32,640 bases of DNA from a virus: the IMG/VR virus record IMGVR_UViG_3300022562_000294, positions 1-32,640 of that record; one strand, written 5' to 3'. Every line of letters begins with the position of its first letter. Within the stretch, counting starts at the first letter, position 1. Shown piece by piece: positions 4,130-23,458 of this stretch. The notes under the pieces are model-generated. The model was given only the letters and a program-made list of their open reading frames with translations. It was not told where the DNA came from and did no database searches. Position numbers and translations under genes: made by a program.

Positions 4130-4286
4130 ATACTGCATGAGAGCAAGGACTAATTACGGAAAACAGACCATGTGCCCGGAAGTATCAAAGCTAGGATCTC
4201 TCTGCACTAGGCCAACTAATCACACCGGGCCTCATGTGGCCTGCGGGCTCATAGCCCACGATTACGAGAGATGGGAAAACAACTAA
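4044..4286 (+). CDS. Small cysteine/histidine-rich putative zinc protein
   Basis: The GTG at 4044 gives 80 residues, and an in-frame ATG at 4137 would give 49. The longer form contains ECKYC, a C-x2-C pair. Both forms contain the motif SLCTRPTNHTGPHVACG, seen in small phage proteins as C-x2-P-x2-H-x2-P-H-x2-C, followed by HDYERW. These residues could bind zinc. The 5' part overlaps the preceding gene by 86 nt in another frame, and its lysine/asparagine-rich N-terminus may not be translated. The choice of start is uncertain. It is a DNA-metabolism neighbour with unknown role. Confidence 0.5.
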   Translation: MQKNKAKESNTDRSTKNENARKKQESECKYCMRARTNYGKQTMCPEVSKLGSLCTRPTNHTGPHVACGLIAHDYERWENN

Positions 4287-5389
4287 TGCCCTACATGGAC
4301 ACTAGTAACAAGGTCGAAGTTCCTAGCTATTTTCCCTCCATCAAAAATGGCCTGGCCTTCGTGGCTCAGAGCCCTGGGAAAAACGAGGTAGAACAACTCA
4401 GGCCCCTGGTTGGAGCCAGTGGCAAACTCCTGAGGGATCTATGTCAAACAGCTGGCATAGATTTCAACCTGTGTTCACTGTTGAACGTAGTCAATTTCCG
4501 CCCCCCAGGAAATGACTTCCAGTTCTTCTGTGGCAAGAAGGCTGACGTGGGAGGCAAGGACTATCCCCTTCCTCCCATCGCCTCAGGAGTTTACCTCAGG
4601 CCCGAATACTTTAACCAGCTAGACAGATTAAAGGCAGAACTAGAAGCCCTTAAGCCCAACCTAGTAGTTGCCCTCGGCCGCGAAGCTCTCTGGGCTCTAA
4701 CGGGATTAAGTGGAATTAACAAATATCGCGGCTCTGTGATGGAATGCAAGCTGGTTCCTGGGCTTAAAGTTCTTCCCACATTTCATCCAGCCGGGATCTT
4801 CAGAAACTATGGAAACAAAATCTATCTGACTCTAGATTTATTTAAGGCCAAAGCAGAACTCAAGTTCCCAGAAATAAAAAGCATCGAACGCGAGATGCAC
4901 CTCTATCCAGAGAGCCCTGGAGAACTCTGGGAGTGGCACGACAATAACCAGTATCGCTTCGGCCACGATCCGCTTCTATCTGTGGATATTGAGGACCGAA
5001 CTTCTAAGGGCCAAAAAATCATCGAGTGCATTGGCTTTGCTTTCAGTCCCTTCAACGCTCTAGTAGTTCCATTCTGGTCAGACCTTCGCCAAGATCATAA
5101 CTACTGGCTGAGCGAAGACGATGAACTCAGAGCCTGGGAGTTCGTCGATTATATGCTTACTAGCTATCCTGTCCTGGGCCAGAACTATATAGCCTATGAC
5201 ACCTGGGTACTACTAAAAGAAATGGGCTTAAAGACCTTAAATCTTGCTGAAGATACAATGATCCAGCATCATGCCTTTCAGCCTGAAATGCAAAAAGGGC
5301 TTGGGGTCCTAGCGAGCATCTATTGCAACGTCCCAGCCTACAAGACCATGAAGCCACGCGGCAAACGTGCCGCTAAGCGAGATGAATAA
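4271..5389 (+). CDS. Uracil-DNA glycosylase domain fused to DNA polymerase I-type 3'-5' exonuclease (N-terminal part of a split polymerase)
   Basis: The protein has 372 residues (alternative ATG at 4286). Residues about 25-200 resemble a family-4-like UDG: FVAQSPGKNE (usual G-E-x-P-G altered to A-Q-S-P-G), NVVNFRPPGN and PTFHPAGIFRN. The N-terminal C-x2-C of Fe-S UDGs is missing. Residues about 230-355 form a DnaQ-like proofreading domain: Exo I SVDIE (D239, E241), Exo II GQNYIAYD (N305, D310) and EDTMIQHHAF. Exo III (Y-x3-D) is absent here but present at the start of the polymerase gene at 6786. UDG-exo-pol fusions are known in some phages (SPO1-type polymerases, from memory). The basic tail KPRGKRAAKRDE ends the polypeptide, where a continuous enzyme would carry on. 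The two halves probably assemble. Confidence 0.8.
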   Translation: MGKQLMPYMDTSNKVEVPSYFPSIKNGLAFVAQSPGKNEVEQLRPLVGASGKLLRDLCQTAGIDFNLCSLLNVVNFRPPGNDFQFFCGKKADVGGKDYPLPPIASGVYLRPEYFNQLDRLKAELEALKPNLVVALGREALWALTGLSGINKYRGSVMECKLVPGLKVLPTFHPAGIFRNYGNKIYLTLDLFKAKAELKFPEIKSIEREMHLYPESPGELWEWHDNNQYRFGHDPLLSVDIEDRTSKGQKIIECIGFAFSPFNALVVPFWSDLRQDHNYWLSEDDELRAWEFVDYMLTSYPVLGQNYIAYDTWVLLKEMGLKTLNLAEDTMIQHHAFQPEMQKGLGVLASIYCNVPAYKTMKPRGKRAAKRDE

Positions 5390-5990: not shown

Positions 5991-6307
5991 GGCGGGGTAC
6001 GGTGAGCTGTGGCTAGTTCCGGCGCGCTTTGGACTGGTGCGGTAAGCCGAGGTTGTGTCGGCCAGCGTTCGGCTGGGTACGCCACTCTTTCGCGGGGCTG
6101 GGTGTGGTGTGTTTAGCTATGGTAAGGTGTGGCGCGTCACGCTTTGGTCGGGTCGGGTTGTCTCGGGTTGGCCTCGCTCCGGTACGGTATGGACTAGGAG
6201 AGGTCCGGCTGGGTGGTGCTAGGTATGGTTTAGGCAATGCTAGGCGCGTTCGGGCGAGGTACGGTCCTGTCCGGTAGTGCAAGCTATGGCTCGCTTGGGT
6301 TAGGCAT
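5991..6307 (+). repeat. Phased degenerate pentanucleotide tract, GGYNN x about 63
   Basis: The interval between two genes divides into consecutive 5-mers, G-G-Y-N-N. Three blocks keep phase: 5991-6195 (41 units), 6197-6231 (7 units) and 6233-6307 (15 units). They are separated by single inserted A residues at 6196 and 6232. Position 3 is C or T in 60 of 63 units, position 1 is G in the large majority, position 2 is usually G, and positions 4-5 vary freely. The tract starts on the base after a TGA stop and ends in the ATG of the next gene. Open frames exist on both strands across it, but their compositions follow the repeat. I treat it as non-coding. The period is not a multiple of 3. Confidence 0.9.
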
Positions 6308-6638: not shown

Positions 6639-6789
6639 GAGCGGCATGAACATAAGGGACTACGTTAAATTCGAGGAAGGAACTTATGACCCGCAAACAG
6701 ACTATTTCCTCTGTACGCCTTGCTATATTAATCTAGATATGCCAATCATGCCAGAGATCCTAATGCTCTACCAAAAGGGTTATCAATGA
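6574..6789 (+). CDS. Small putative zinc-ribbon protein
   Basis: The GTG at 6574, 6 nt after an AGGGGG site (about 6562-6567), gives 71 residues. A GTG at 6568 adds two. C-x2-C pairs flank the protein: CFKC at the start and CTPC about 45 residues later. This fits a small zinc ribbon, although the family is unknown. It overlaps the preceding gene by about 65 nt in another frame. It overlaps the polymerase start by 4 nt (ATGA), implying coupled translation with the polymerase. Confidence 0.6.
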   Translation: MKCFKCQREPEELIEYQDAASESGMNIRDYVKFEEGTYDPQTDYFLCTPCYINLDMPIMPEILMLYQKGYQ

Positions 6790-8294
6790 AGATAGTTAAA
6801 ACATCAGAACTAACAGACTATCTAAGGGCCTCTAGTCCTGACGCGAAGCTCTGGATCTATAACGCCTTCGACGTTATGCTTCCTTTGGAAATCTTCGAGG
6901 AAGTCAAGTCCAGAATGACTGAAAACCAAAAACATACCTACCGCTTTGAGAAAGCCCTACAAGGCCCGGCCTTCTCTATGATGCAGAATGGCATCAAAGT
7001 AGATATGGCTCTCTTAGCACAAGAGACTAAGCGCGCCAAAAAGGAACTAGAAGATCTAGAATCCTACGTCAGGTCTTTAGCCATTGCCGTTTGGGGAGAT
7101 GGAATCAACGTAAGATCTCCAGCTCAGATGTGCCAGCTATTCTATCTCGATCCTAATGGATTTCAATGCCAAAAGCACTACGAGGGTGTCGGCCAGAAGC
7201 GCCACCTAACTACTAACAGAAAAGCTTTAGAAAAGATCTACACCACAAACTATATAACTCGGCCGCTAATCAAGGCCATGTTTGCCCTTAAAGATATTCA
7301 AAAAGAAATCGAGTTTCTAGAACGAGGAGTCGAGCCCGATGGCCGTGTTCACTGTAGCTTTAATGTCGCTGCGACCGAGACAGGACGCTGGTCAAGTTCA
7401 AAGAATCCTTGGGGACGTGGAGCTAATTTCCAAAATCAGGGCGAAAAGACTCGGAGCATATACCTTGCTGACGAGGACTTCATCTTCGCATACCCCGATC
7501 TATCGCAAGCAGAATCTCGGGCTGTGGCTTACTATTCGGGAGACAAGAATTATATTAGGGCTGTGGAATCTGGAGACCTCCACACGCAAGTCGCTAAGCT
7601 CGTATGGCCAGAGCTTCCGTGGACGGAAGATCCAAAAAGTGATAGGGAGATAGCCGATGGGCCTTATTACAGACATTTTTCCTATCGTGATATGTCGAAG
7701 CGTGGAGGACACGCACTCAACTACCTCGGACAACCCTATACGATTGCATCCCATCTTAATCTCGAAAGGGAGCAAGCGGAAGATTTCTACTCACGTTACT
7801 TTGGAGCGTTCCCAGACATTGCAGAATGGCATAATCGAGTACAAATTGACCTTCAGAATACCGGCCGACTTACAACTGCACTTGGACGAGAACGGATGTT
7901 TTTTGGTAGACTCGACGATAACCACACGCTCAAAGAAGCGATAGCATTCTTGCCACAGAGTCTAATTTCAGACATTCTAAAGATCGGAACACTTTACATC
8001 TGGAAAGAGTTTGAGCTTAAGCGTCGCTGGGCCAAACTCTGTGGTGATCTACATGACGGGCTACTAATGCTAATCAAGAAGATTCATCTCGACGAGAGCG
8101 CTCCTATTATGATTCAGATGATGGAGCAGAAAGTTAAAATGCCACACGGAGTTATGAAGATTCCCGTAGACTTCACAGTAGGCTATAGATGGCAGAAGAA
8201 AGAGATGCTAAAATGGAAGCCAGGAATTTTAGCACAACTAAAACCTATCACTCCCACAGACAATCTATTGGACATTAAAGCCACGGACGTTTAG
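6786..8294 (+). CDS. Family-A DNA polymerase, polymerase domain plus Exo III motif
   Basis: The protein has 502 residues. Residues 23-35, WIYNAFDVMLPLE, match the Exo III Y-x3-D motif (Y25, D29) and helix that close a PolA proofreading domain whose other motifs are in the 4271 gene. Polymerase motif A, YPDLSQAESR, is near residue 235. Motif B, RDMSKRGGHALNY, is near 301-313 and has the conserved R, K and Y. Motif C, DLHDGLL, is near 420. The usual Glu after the motif C Asp is Gly (H-D-G). The O-helix position corresponding to E. coli Phe762 appears to be His, as in several phage enzymes (from memory). There is no 5'-3' exonuclease domain. It replicates phage DNA, probably paired with the UDG/exo subunit. 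Confidence 0.85.
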   Translation: MKIVKTSELTDYLRASSPDAKLWIYNAFDVMLPLEIFEEVKSRMTENQKHTYRFEKALQGPAFSMMQNGIKVDMALLAQETKRAKKELEDLESYVRSLAIAVWGDGINVRSPAQMCQLFYLDPNGFQCQKHYEGVGQKRHLTTNRKALEKIYTTNYITRPLIKAMFALKDIQKEIEFLERGVEPDGRVHCSFNVAATETGRWSSSKNPWGRGANFQNQGEKTRSIYLADEDFIFAYPDLSQAESRAVAYYSGDKNYIRAVESGDLHTQVAKLVWPELPWTEDPKSDREIADGPYYRHFSYRDMSKRGGHALNYLGQPYTIASHLNLEREQAEDFYSRYFGAFPDIAEWHNRVQIDLQNTGRLTTALGRERMFFGRLDDNHTLKEAIAFLPQSLISDILKIGTLYIWKEFELKRRWAKLCGDLHDGLLMLIKKIHLDESAPIMIQMMEQKVKMPHGVMKIPVDFTVGYRWQKKEMLKWKPGILAQLKPITPTDNLLDIKATDV

Positions 8295-8308: not shown

Positions 8309-9517
8309 GTGAGAAAGTGTGACAACTGGCTTAAGAGCTGGTTGGAATACTCTTCGAGTTGGGAGTCGCCAGAGCGGTTTAGGCTGTGGTCAGGGATAGC
8401 TGCAATTAGCGCGGTAACACAAAGAAGATTGTTTACTTATGTCAAAGGACAGCAGTTATTTCCGAACACTTATATTTTGCTCATCGGATCTCCCGGTTCT
8501 GGAAAAGGCAACGCCATGAAATACCTGGCCCAGTGGCTCAAGGACTTCGATGGAGAGTTTTTTAGAATGGCCCCTGACGGGCTAACTAAAAGAGCCTTTT
8601 ACATGACCCTCGAAGGCGCAAAGGTTATGCCGGGAGGAGATCCAAATAACGAGCAGCATTCATTAACTGCCTTCATTGAAGAACTCGGAGTCTTTCTTCA
8701 TCCAGGAGACAATGACTTTGTTTACGCACTTTGCCACGTCTATGACTGCCCAAAGAAATTTCACTATAAGACGGCTAGCGCAGGTGAAAACTTTGCCAAC
8801 AATGCCTGTTTCACAATGCTTAGTGCGTGTACGCCCAAAGCGCTACGTGATATCTACACTGAAGATGCGATGGAGTTGGGAATTAGCGCACGAACTATCA
8901 TTGTTTATGCAGACGATAAGATCGAAGTCCCAATCTTCGGAAAGCCAGAAAACCACGACAAGCTCGCAAAAGACCTAAAGTATGATTTAGCTAGGATGCT
9001 CGAAACCGAAGGAGAATATCAGTTTGACGAAGAGGCCGCCCAAGCTCTAGTCGATTGGGCCGCAACAGACTTCGCGCCTAAGCCGAAGGACTCCAGGTTT
9101 GAGCACTACAATTCAAGAAGGTTTGTCCAAATAGTAAAGCTCTGTATGATATGTGCGCTCTCCAAACGAGACGATCCTATAATTCTAATAGAGGACTTCA
9201 ATCAAGCCAGGGATATGCTACTAGAGTGCGAGCGCTATATGCCAAAGGCTATTGAAACCTTGGGAGCCAATCCTCTGCTAATGCAGCGTAACGCATCCAT
9301 GTTACTCATAAACGAGAACTTCAGAAAACTTAACGCTCCAACACATGAGCATGACTTAAGACGCCTAATGGAGCGTGATGTACCAATACAGTTTCACGAT
9401 GAAATGCTCGATCAGCTAGAGAAAGGTAAATGGGTAAGTGTCATAGGGTCAAAGCCAGATAGGCTTTTCTACCCAAGAGGCAAGCACATAATGGAGAAGA
9501 AGAAAGATGAAAACTAG
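8309..9517 (+). CDS. DUF3987-like P-loop ATPase, putative helicase/primase-associated
   Basis: The protein has 402 residues. The GTG start follows a GGGGGG site. After an N-terminal helix with a tryptophan-rich patch, PNTYILLIGSPGSGKGN supplies a Walker A at about 60-68. The final Ser/Thr of the P-loop is Gly here. Residues 118-127 (LTAFIEELG) are the likely Walker B. A basic, helical C-terminus resembles a winged-helix (ENFRKLNAPTHEHDLRRLM). The layout 'W-x-A-I-S, PN-x-Y-x-L-L-I-G-x-P-G-S-G-K' is the DUF3987 pattern. That family is often linked to primase or helicase modules. Its position after the polymerase fits a replicative ATPase role, inferred only. Confidence 0.65.
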   Translation: MRKCDNWLKSWLEYSSSWESPERFRLWSGIAAISAVTQRRLFTYVKGQQLFPNTYILLIGSPGSGKGNAMKYLAQWLKDFDGEFFRMAPDGLTKRAFYMTLEGAKVMPGGDPNNEQHSLTAFIEELGVFLHPGDNDFVYALCHVYDCPKKFHYKTASAGENFANNACFTMLSACTPKALRDIYTEDAMELGISARTIIVYADDKIEVPIFGKPENHDKLAKDLKYDLARMLETEGEYQFDEEAAQALVDWAATDFAPKPKDSRFEHYNSRRFVQIVKLCMICALSKRDDPIILIEDFNQARDMLLECERYMPKAIETLGANPLLMQRNASMLLINENFRKLNAPTHEHDLRRLMERDVPIQFHDEMLDQLEKGKWVSVIGSKPDRLFYPRGKHIMEKKKDEN

Positions 9518-9917
9518 AAACATTATTCTACTGGCAATCTTTGGAGTTATCCTCATCGCTGTTGGAATCTTCGGAATAGTAGAGGTAGCTAAAAGCCAAA
9601 CGCCAACCCCGAGGCCCAATGTACCTCTACTTCAAACGGGAGGCATTTACAACGCAGGCTGCCAGCCAGTCGAGCCCTTTGATACCGTCGTTAAGGCCTG
9701 CTGGGTAAGGACAGACACTACAGAACCTCAGGAGCTTGGTTGTGTAGATTCTATCGGCGGGGCTGAAGCCAGAATGGATCTCAACATGATAATTAACGTC
9801 AATGAGGTTGCCGAGGTCCGATGCTACGTTGTAAGTGAACAGGGAGTTCCTTCGGACTATTCTGAGAACGCAGGCATAGTGGATTTTACGCAGCCAGGGC
9901 GGCCTTTTGTCAGATAG
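9507..9917 (+). CDS. Membrane-anchored or secreted protein with Fn3-like end (0-frame product)
   Basis: The protein has 136 residues and overlaps the preceding gene by 11 nt. Residues about 6-28 are a hydrophobic segment (IILLAIFGVILIAVGIFGIV) followed by AKSQTPTPRP, so it is either cleaved or an N-terminal anchor. The outer part has cysteines and an Fn3-like ending: AEVRCYVVSEQGVPSDYSEN, then IVDFTQPGRP, as at the end of Fn3/Ig-type domains. The 0-frame stops at TAG (9915-9917). Immediately downstream the -1 frame encodes a dockerin/EF-hand-like motif, listed separately. It is likely exported or displayed, but its role is unknown. It is unlike the DNA-metabolism genes around it. Confidence 0.65.
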   Translation: MKTRNIILLAIFGVILIAVGIFGIVEVAKSQTPTPRPNVPLLQTGGIYNAGCQPVEPFDTVVKACWVRTDTTEPQELGCVDSIGGAEARMDLNMIINVNEVAEVRCYVVSEQGVPSDYSENAGIVDFTQPGRPFVR

Positions 9918-10042
9918 CTCCAGTTGTTTGCGCCGACCTGGATGGGGATGGATCTGTGGGCTATTCGGACTTCGGCAAATGGGCTCAACAGTACGGAAGA
10001 TGCCACAACAATAAGGAGGAAATACCGTGTCCGGTAAACTGA
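9866..10042 (+). other. -1 frame extension with a dockerin/EF-hand-like loop
   Basis: The -1 frame is open from 9866, overlaps the parent gene for 51 nt, and continues to TGA at 10040-10042. It encodes DLDGDGSVGYSD, a 12-residue loop with Asp at 1, 3, 5 and 12, followed by FGKWAQQYG, as in dockerin type I-like repeats. A -1 slip on a TTTT run (9905-9908 or 9884-9887) would join it to the Fn3-like protein. It has no start codon of its own with a ribosome site. The next gene starts at 10027, overlapping by 16 nt. The alternative is an inactivating indel. Confidence 0.6.
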
Positions 10043-22573: not shown

Positions 22574-22908
22574 TACAGTCCATCATCCTTCTGAACCCGC
22601 GCTATGGCTTTTGCATCTAAACGATAAGACAGCCCAGCCCCACCAGAAATCTCAAACTGAAGTCTCAGGGGCATCCCTTCGCTTAGTCCGCTTTGATCGT
22701 CAGGAACCAAACACTCATAAGATCCCAATTCATCTGCGAGTTCCGTCAAGTTGAAAGTAGCTATCAAGCTATTGTCTGTCCCACTATATAGCTTCATAGT
22801 ACCAGTAGTGATGCCTTCGATTAGTTGGCCAGTTTTCTCGTTTCTAAACTGTTCCAAAACAAAAGGCGTGTCTGTTCCAATCCATACTGTTCGCGGCCTG
22901 TCAGGCAT
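22573..22908 (-). CDS. Hypothetical virion protein, beta-rich
   Basis: The protein has 111 residues. Strands alternate (TVWIGTDTPFVLEQF, TGTMKLYSGTDNSLIATFNL, LGSYECLVPDD, PLRLQFEISGGAGLSYRL). This pattern resembles a small immunoglobulin-like or baseplate-type beta sandwich of a virion component. Function is unknown. It overlaps the PKD gene by 8 nt and the next gene at TAATG. Confidence 0.5.
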   Translation of the reverse strand: MPDRPRTVWIGTDTPFVLEQFRNEKTGQLIEGITTGTMKLYSGTDNSLIATFNLTELADELGSYECLVPDDQSGLSEGMPLRLQFEISGGAGLSYRLDAKAIARVQKDDGL

Positions 22909-23458
22909 CTAGTGACCTCAACTTAGCACTTACTCTAGGCCTGTCCCTCAGGCGGTTAATTTTAACACTAGTCTTATCGCCACGCTTAATCCTACCACTC
23001 ACATTGATTCTTGGAACAAACGTAGCATTCGGACCTAGGCCATACCTGATACTAGCACCCAAAAGCGGATCGTCGTTCAGTCTCCAAATAGAAACGCTGC
23101 CTGTAAGACTGAGTACAATGAAACTAATCTTAGTTTCTGTGTCACACCCAGCAGTATTACAAACAGTAAGACTAACCGTATAAGAGCCAGGATTCAAATA
23201 AGTATGGCCTGGGTTCTGGTCTGTACTTGTATTTCCGTCGCCAAAGTCCCAAAACCAAGTATCAATAGCTCCCGTGCTCTGGTCAATGAACCTAACGAAC
23301 CCAGGAGCTTGCGTAGGCTTAGCACCAAAACCGCCGCCCTTGATAAACGTGGTAAATTCAGCTACTGGAATAGCCAGGCCAAACAGACCTCCCCCATAGC
23401 GTAGAAGCCTTTGCCTAAACGCAATAAGTGAGGGAGGTCTGTAAGTGAACCTAGCCAT
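22901..23458 (-). CDS. PKD-domain virion protein
   Basis: The protein has 185 residues. Residues about 50-110 are a PKD domain: FIDQSTGAIDTWFWDFGDGN, then HTYLNPGSYTVSLTVCN. The signature W-D-F-G-D-G is complete. Flanking parts are short: an Arg/Gly-rich N-terminus (YRPPSLIAFRQRLLRYGGG) and a basic, beta-rich C-terminus. PKD and Ig-like domains on phage capsids or tails commonly bind glycans or mucus on the host side. Which virion part carries it is unknown. Confidence 0.75.
   Translation of the reverse strand: MARFTYRPPSLIAFRQRLLRYGGGLFGLAIPVAEFTTFIKGGGFGAKPTQAPGFVRFIDQSTGAIDTWFWDFGDGNTSTDQNPGHTYLNPGSYTVSLTVCNTAGCDTETKISFIVLSLTGSVSIWRLNDDPLLGASIRYGLGPNATFVPRINVSGRIKRGDKTSVKINRLRDRPRVSAKLRSLDA

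Follow-up and report, generated by a model that had tools for sequence, protein, structure and literature searches.

Gene organization at the locus

The window, that is, the whole stretch of DNA analyzed, was the uncultured phage record IMGVR_UViG_3300022562_000294 from IMG/VR (32,640 bases). It contained a small gene in which a second open reading frame, in the -1 frame, overlapped the end of the first. The features of this locus were:

9507-9917, plus strand: 0-frame open reading frame, 136 amino acids, with the stop codon TAG at 9915-9917
Within 9507-9917, plus strand: N-terminal signal peptide or transmembrane segment, then a likely Ig/Fn3-like beta domain with four invariant cysteines
9866-9917, plus strand: overlap of the two frames, from the last -1-frame stop (TGA, 9863-9865) to the 0-frame stop, inside which any shift must fall
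9881-9887, plus strand: slippery heptamer GGATTTT (G_GAT_TTT in the 0 frame), with -1 reading resuming at TAC (9887-9889)
9887-10042, plus strand: -1-frame tail of 51 codons, YAARAAFCQIAPVVCADLDGDGSVGYSDFGKWAQQYGRCHNNKEEIPCPVN, followed by TGA at 10040-10042; four invariant cysteines
9935-9970, plus strand: EF-hand/dockerin-type calcium loop DLDGDGSVGYSD in the -1 frame, assigned by a dockerin structure match and a loop-pattern match
10013-10042, plus strand: Shine-Dalgarno sequence AAGGAGG and GTG start (10027) of the next small open reading frame, which the tail overlaps by 16 nt

The coordinates of the original prediction were borne out. The open reading frame at 9507-9917 ends in TAG, and the -1 frame is open from 9866 to 10042. 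The -1 frame did end 16 nt into a next gene with its own AAGGAGG, and the -1 frame after the TAG did encode a dockerin-type loop, DLDGDGSVGYSD, beginning at 9935. This loop was the sole match to the EF-hand-loop pattern in the six frames of the window, whereas a random window with a similar dinucleotide composition would be expected to give 0.017 matches. Two TTTT runs were found in the overlap, at 9884-9887 and 9904-9907. Because the codon after the slip would be UAC, the predicted long form reads ...NAGIVDF-YAARAAFC... and has 178 amino acids. The next small open reading frame (GTG 10027) had no match among the open reading frames of the relatives described below and lies outside the conserved cassette.

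Homologs in other phages

Three relatives were identified by scanning viral contigs with the 0-frame protein: L002 (73% identical), L003 (68%), and L004 (37%). These were picked by 0-frame protein similarity alone. A fifth copy, L031, was found by a DNA pattern search, and the pattern used contained the slip site. The whole set therefore comprised five genes (those of the window, L002, L003, L004, and L031), all from IMG/VR phage contigs. First-domain identity was 37-73% for the four homologs, and 40-74% in a separate alignment of the 0-frame proteins. The frame break and the -1 tail were identical in arrangement in all five genes: each had a downstream open reading frame in the -1 frame overlapping the upstream one, and in each the 0-frame stop lay 27 or 30 nt past a common GGATTTT. 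Read in the -1 frame, the five tails shared the pattern Y...C...VC.D(L/I)...G.VG..DFG......C.....E.PC. A search for the DNA pattern GGATTTTAC with the loop 30-60 nt downstream, permitting all three frames, returned the same contigs only, all in the -1 register. No further members were found by tblastn against annotated phages and plasmids.

A conserved slippery heptamer

Codon identity was counted in the four genes that were not selected by slip-site sequence, leaving out L031. The 0-frame first domain had 42 invariant residues, only 5 of which were encoded by an identical codon in all four genes. Three of these five were consecutive, GTG GAT TTT (Val-Asp-Phe), and made up the only invariant codon run of the gene; the hypergeometric chance of these three codons being among the five was about 9e-4. 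The third bases kept in this run were exactly those that complete the heptamer G_GAU_UUU (9881-9887), and the Thr codon directly after it, ACN, used all four third bases. A conserved slippery sequence was thus present in the right codon phase inside the overlap, with GTGGATTTTAC invariant.

The original prediction had called the heptamer non-canonical. This view was overcautious: besides forming the only invariant codon block of the gene, GGATTTT has already been established as a -1 site. GGAUUUU is the established -1 site of pea enation mosaic virus (PEMV) RNA2, in which changes to the U run cut shifting to near background and changes barring P-site re-pairing lowered it to 36-40% (PMC4737148). 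The literature lists the same slip motif for further viruses of eukaryotes. Of the Z_ZZN tetramers, U_UUU is the third most shift-prone in E. coli, and insertion sequences make use of it (PMC4066793). P-site re-pairing from GAU to GGA is poor, which counts against reading the site as a frameshift signal.

The frame could also be changed in the RNA, through slippage during transcription, or elsewhere in the overlap, for example at the TTTT at 9904-9907; both T runs are inside the overlap, and the window and L003 have both. However, four T in a row are few for slippage by a polymerase, and the second TTTT was missing from L002, L004, and L031, for which reason it was rejected as a slip site. Only GGATTTT, with the first TTTT run, was common to all five genes, and a change of frame in the RNA or at another site is quite improbable.

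Other routes to the tail

Overlapping genes of phage operons are often coupled, and the tail might be made as a separate small protein by termination-reinitiation at the 0-frame stop. L002 has a -1-frame GTG 9 nt past its 0-frame stop, and it is the only copy with a -1-frame start codon before the loop. Reinitiation was rejected because the -1 open reading frames have no start codon in common: that of L003 contains no ATG, GTG, or TTG, and in the window, L004, and L031 the earliest -1-frame start codon is inside or after the loop. In addition, the -1 frame begins upstream of the 0-frame stop, and the first invariant cysteine of the tail (column 8) is located at or upstream of that stop. A separately initiated tail, cysteine-rich and of a secreted type, would have no signal peptide, and the invariant GTG GAT TTT would be left unexplained. 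Reinitiation is therefore very improbable as the source of the tail.

The window is a single uncultured contig and its one-base break is near short T runs, and the original prediction had feared that an indel, whether an assembly error or a recent mutation, had split a gene that was once in a single frame. This explanation was rejected, since the identical -1 relation was found in four further contigs, whose identity was 37-73%. It is very unlikely that the break came from a sequencing error, because these four contigs show the same break followed by the same -1 tail, and random error cannot explain a break shared by five independent contigs. The loop was present in every gene, always in the -1 frame, and none of the five was fused in one frame; no single-frame homolog was found among the relatives. 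The 0-frame end after the slip, TxPGxPxV, was itself conserved. An indel in the window contig is scarcely credible as an explanation.

Selection on both reading frames

Substitutions were counted by codon position on either side of the 0-frame stop. In the overlap, pairwise differences at the three 0-frame codon positions were 10/22/44, indicating retention of the 0-frame ending TxPGxPxV. Past the 0-frame stop, the counts for the three -1 codon positions were 122/94/244, and dN in the -1 frame was 0.21-0.45 with dS saturated, while in the other two frames dN was of about the order of dS or above it. In the tail alignment, 15 of 51 columns were invariant, including the four cysteines and residues of the calcium loop. 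Because 0-frame codons are conserved in the overlap and -1 codons are conserved after the stop, both products, of 136 and 178 amino acids, are probably needed. The chance that the gene yields only the 0-frame protein, with the -1 tail decaying as a relic, is negligible. Although the 0-frame end is well conserved, -1 third positions past the 0-frame stop are about twice as variable as the first and second positions, and a relic would not keep 15 of 51 columns invariant at saturated dS.

Search for a stimulatory element

Nested RNA secondary structure was sought by single-sequence and consensus folding. The 91 nt downstream of the slip site folded no more stably than shuffled sequences in the five genes (z of +1.04, 0.13, 0.92, -0.52, and -0.88), and the consensus fold of this region had an unfavorable covariation term and no covariation support. 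A hairpin starting near the slip site (ACCxGG...CC) appeared in some single folds and was rejected, as neither the shuffles nor the covariation supported it. No upstream Shine-Dalgarno-like stretch (anti-Shine-Dalgarno pairing) was consistent across the five genes; L031 alone had a strong one, at -22 to -24. Frameshift efficiency may be low, or the stimulator may be of a kind invisible to these tools.

The predicted exported first domain

By sequence, all five N-termini had a hydrophobic segment and, after it, a small-residue site that precedes Q and resembles a signal-peptidase site. The domain behind this segment contained four cysteines invariant in the five genes. AlphaFold modeled the first domain as a helix (2-29) and six strands forming a low-confidence beta sandwich (pLDDT 64). 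The best VIA-align matches were Ig and Fn3-like domains, with Z about 7 (up to 7.4). Foldseek searches of two structure libraries returned nothing below E 1e-3, there was no Pfam match, and the domain had no match in the scan of genome contigs. With a pLDDT of 64, a Z of about 7, and no Foldseek match passing 1e-3, an Ig/Fn3-like fold is likely rather than firm. The Fn3-like label given in the original prediction was thus weakly supported.

Elsewhere in the window, the minus-strand gene at 22901-23458 encodes a phage protein with a stretch that by eye is PKD-like, which would be another Ig-like domain.

The calcium-loop tail

When the tail profile was compared with solved structures, the best match was a cellulosomal dockerin (2y3n_B, E 1.2e-6). 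The loop consensus, D-x-D/N-x-D/N-G-x-hydrophobic-x-x-x-D, was present in the tail alignment, with the L031 and L004 loops deviating at one or two positions. Type I dockerins of the cellulosome, such as 2y3n chain B, share with the tail the DxDxDGxVxxxD loop and an F-helix-like stretch after it, which ends in YG or FG in some members. However, type I dockerins have two tandem F-hand repeats and bind cohesins, whereas the phage tail holds one loop with four invariant cysteines around it, and the L004 and L031 tails have a degenerate F-helix stretch. Against the Pfam EF-hand families the tail scored 11.8-18.4 bits, under the gathering cut-offs of 25-30, and its predicted model had a pLDDT of 52. 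The tail may function in the manner of an EF-hand or dockerin loop; with one repeat instead of two and Pfam scores under the cut-offs, it was not classed as a dockerin. The four invariant cysteines of the tail are in keeping with a protein predicted to be exported.

The tail scan of genome contigs gave a single match, an ordinary two-repeat dockerin-like end in a Phycisphaerales metagenome-assembled genome (L033, CP070685.1, about 5001-5090). This is the in-frame C-terminus of an alkaline-phosphatase-like protein and illustrates the two-repeat version of such an end.

Gene neighborhoods and mobility

The five copies were encoded in varied surroundings. Replication genes surround it in three of the phages: in the window the gene follows a DUF3987/primase-helicase-like gene, and in L003 and L004 it follows a DNA primase. 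In L002 it is near an integrase, and in L031 it lies in the tail region, with a tail protein on one side and the tape measure on the other. It was the only clear homolog shared between the window and the other loci, with one weak extra match (E 7e-5). The same gene was therefore found at different places in mostly unrelated phages, as is the case for morons. L003 and L004 (L005 and L006) have a common backbone, with primases 72% identical and neighboring genes 55-69% identical. Their frameshift genes occupy the same place and are only 40% identical, compared with 77% for L003 and L002. This looks like allele or cassette swapping, the L003 copy being close to that of the unrelated L002. The varied neighborhoods, together with an L003 copy nearer to L002 than to the backbone-sharing L004, give the pattern of a mobile, moron-like cargo gene in which the frameshift appears to move with the gene.

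Upstream in the window, a DNA polymerase A is encoded in two plus-strand open reading frames, 4271-5389 and 6786-8294. The exonuclease part matches phrog_17 from 554 to 788 and the polymerase part from 802 to 1237. The two halves are separated by about 1.4 kb with small open reading frames. Between them, 6001-6290 is skewed, low-complexity-looking, and open on both strands (6029-6277, plus; 6013-6282, minus); Tandem Repeats Finder detected no array in it.

Proposed mechanism

It is highly probable that this gene is a mobile phage cassette with a built-in programmed -1 ribosomal frameshift. The case is built on the gene architecture, the heptamer, the coding conservation in two frames, the lack of a shared second-frame start, and the signal-peptide-like N-termini, all read from five sequences only, one of which (L031) was found via the slip-site pattern. 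The homologs and the conserved heptamer support the original proposal that a -1 frameshift adds a dockerin-like loop. We infer the slippage itself, its efficiency, the calcium binding, and the role suggested here.

Most ribosomes would stay in frame 0 as far as the TAG and make the 136-amino acid protein, with its predicted signal peptide and Ig/Fn3-like domain ending in VDFTxPGxPxV. Some ribosomes would move back one base on G_GAU_UUU, with tRNA-Asp in the P site and tRNA-Phe in the A site. The slipped tRNAs would re-pair on GGA UUU, and decoding would go on at UAC. The resulting 178-amino acid product would end in a tail that is rich in cysteine and holds one dockerin-type EF-hand loop. The two forms would be exported and would presumably work within the cell envelope or outside the cell, where the tail may bind calcium and stiffen or anchor the longer form.

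Comparison with known systems

In phage coat and tail proteins, -1 or +1 frameshifting is known to add C-terminal Ig-like domains, and a review of recoding explains these additions by mobile domains inserted in the wrong frame (PMC5009743). The T3 capsid, Lactobacillus phage A2, and Listeria phages provide examples. Like the gene described here, they have a frameshift near the 3' end that gives two products per gene, an extra C-terminal domain on a fraction of the copies, and mobile domains found on unrelated proteins. In those systems, however, a coat or tail protein of the virion receives an Ig-like domain, whereas here the likely Ig/Fn3-like domain comes first, behind a signal peptide, and what is added is a dockerin-like EF-hand tail. 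The product is predicted to be exported and is no evident virion protein, and the heptamer differs.

The G_GAU_UUU sites of the PEMV type (PMC4737148) have the identical heptamer in the same codon phase. These sites of eukaryotic RNA viruses work on eukaryotic ribosomes and need a downstream RNA structure, whereas none was detected in the phage genes. The G/GT frameshift of tail-assembly chaperones in tailed phages is likewise conserved and of the -1 type; it lies close to where the upstream open reading frame ends and yields a minority longer product. It is unrelated in sequence and place, since only the L031 copy is in a tail region and the present protein has a signal peptide.

An open-access full-text search, with subscription papers outside its scope, returned no paper joining dockerin, phage, and frameshift. 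We tentatively suggest that the gene could represent a previously undescribed phage system with two forms at the surface or in the envelope, in which a mobile cassette carries its own decoding signal. G_GAU_UUU would work on bacterial ribosomes with no detectable RNA stimulator and set the ratio of plain to calcium-loop-tailed forms of a secreted Ig-like protein.

Recoding in phages is known mainly from virion proteins and tail chaperones, and here it would occur in a small exported moron-like gene. Dockerin-like tails encoded out of frame would be lost by ordinary gene calling. The gene also offers a short natural test piece for shifting at G_GAU_UUU on bacterial ribosomes. That mostly unrelated phages have kept the predicted frameshift suggests that it matters in what ratio the two secreted forms are made.
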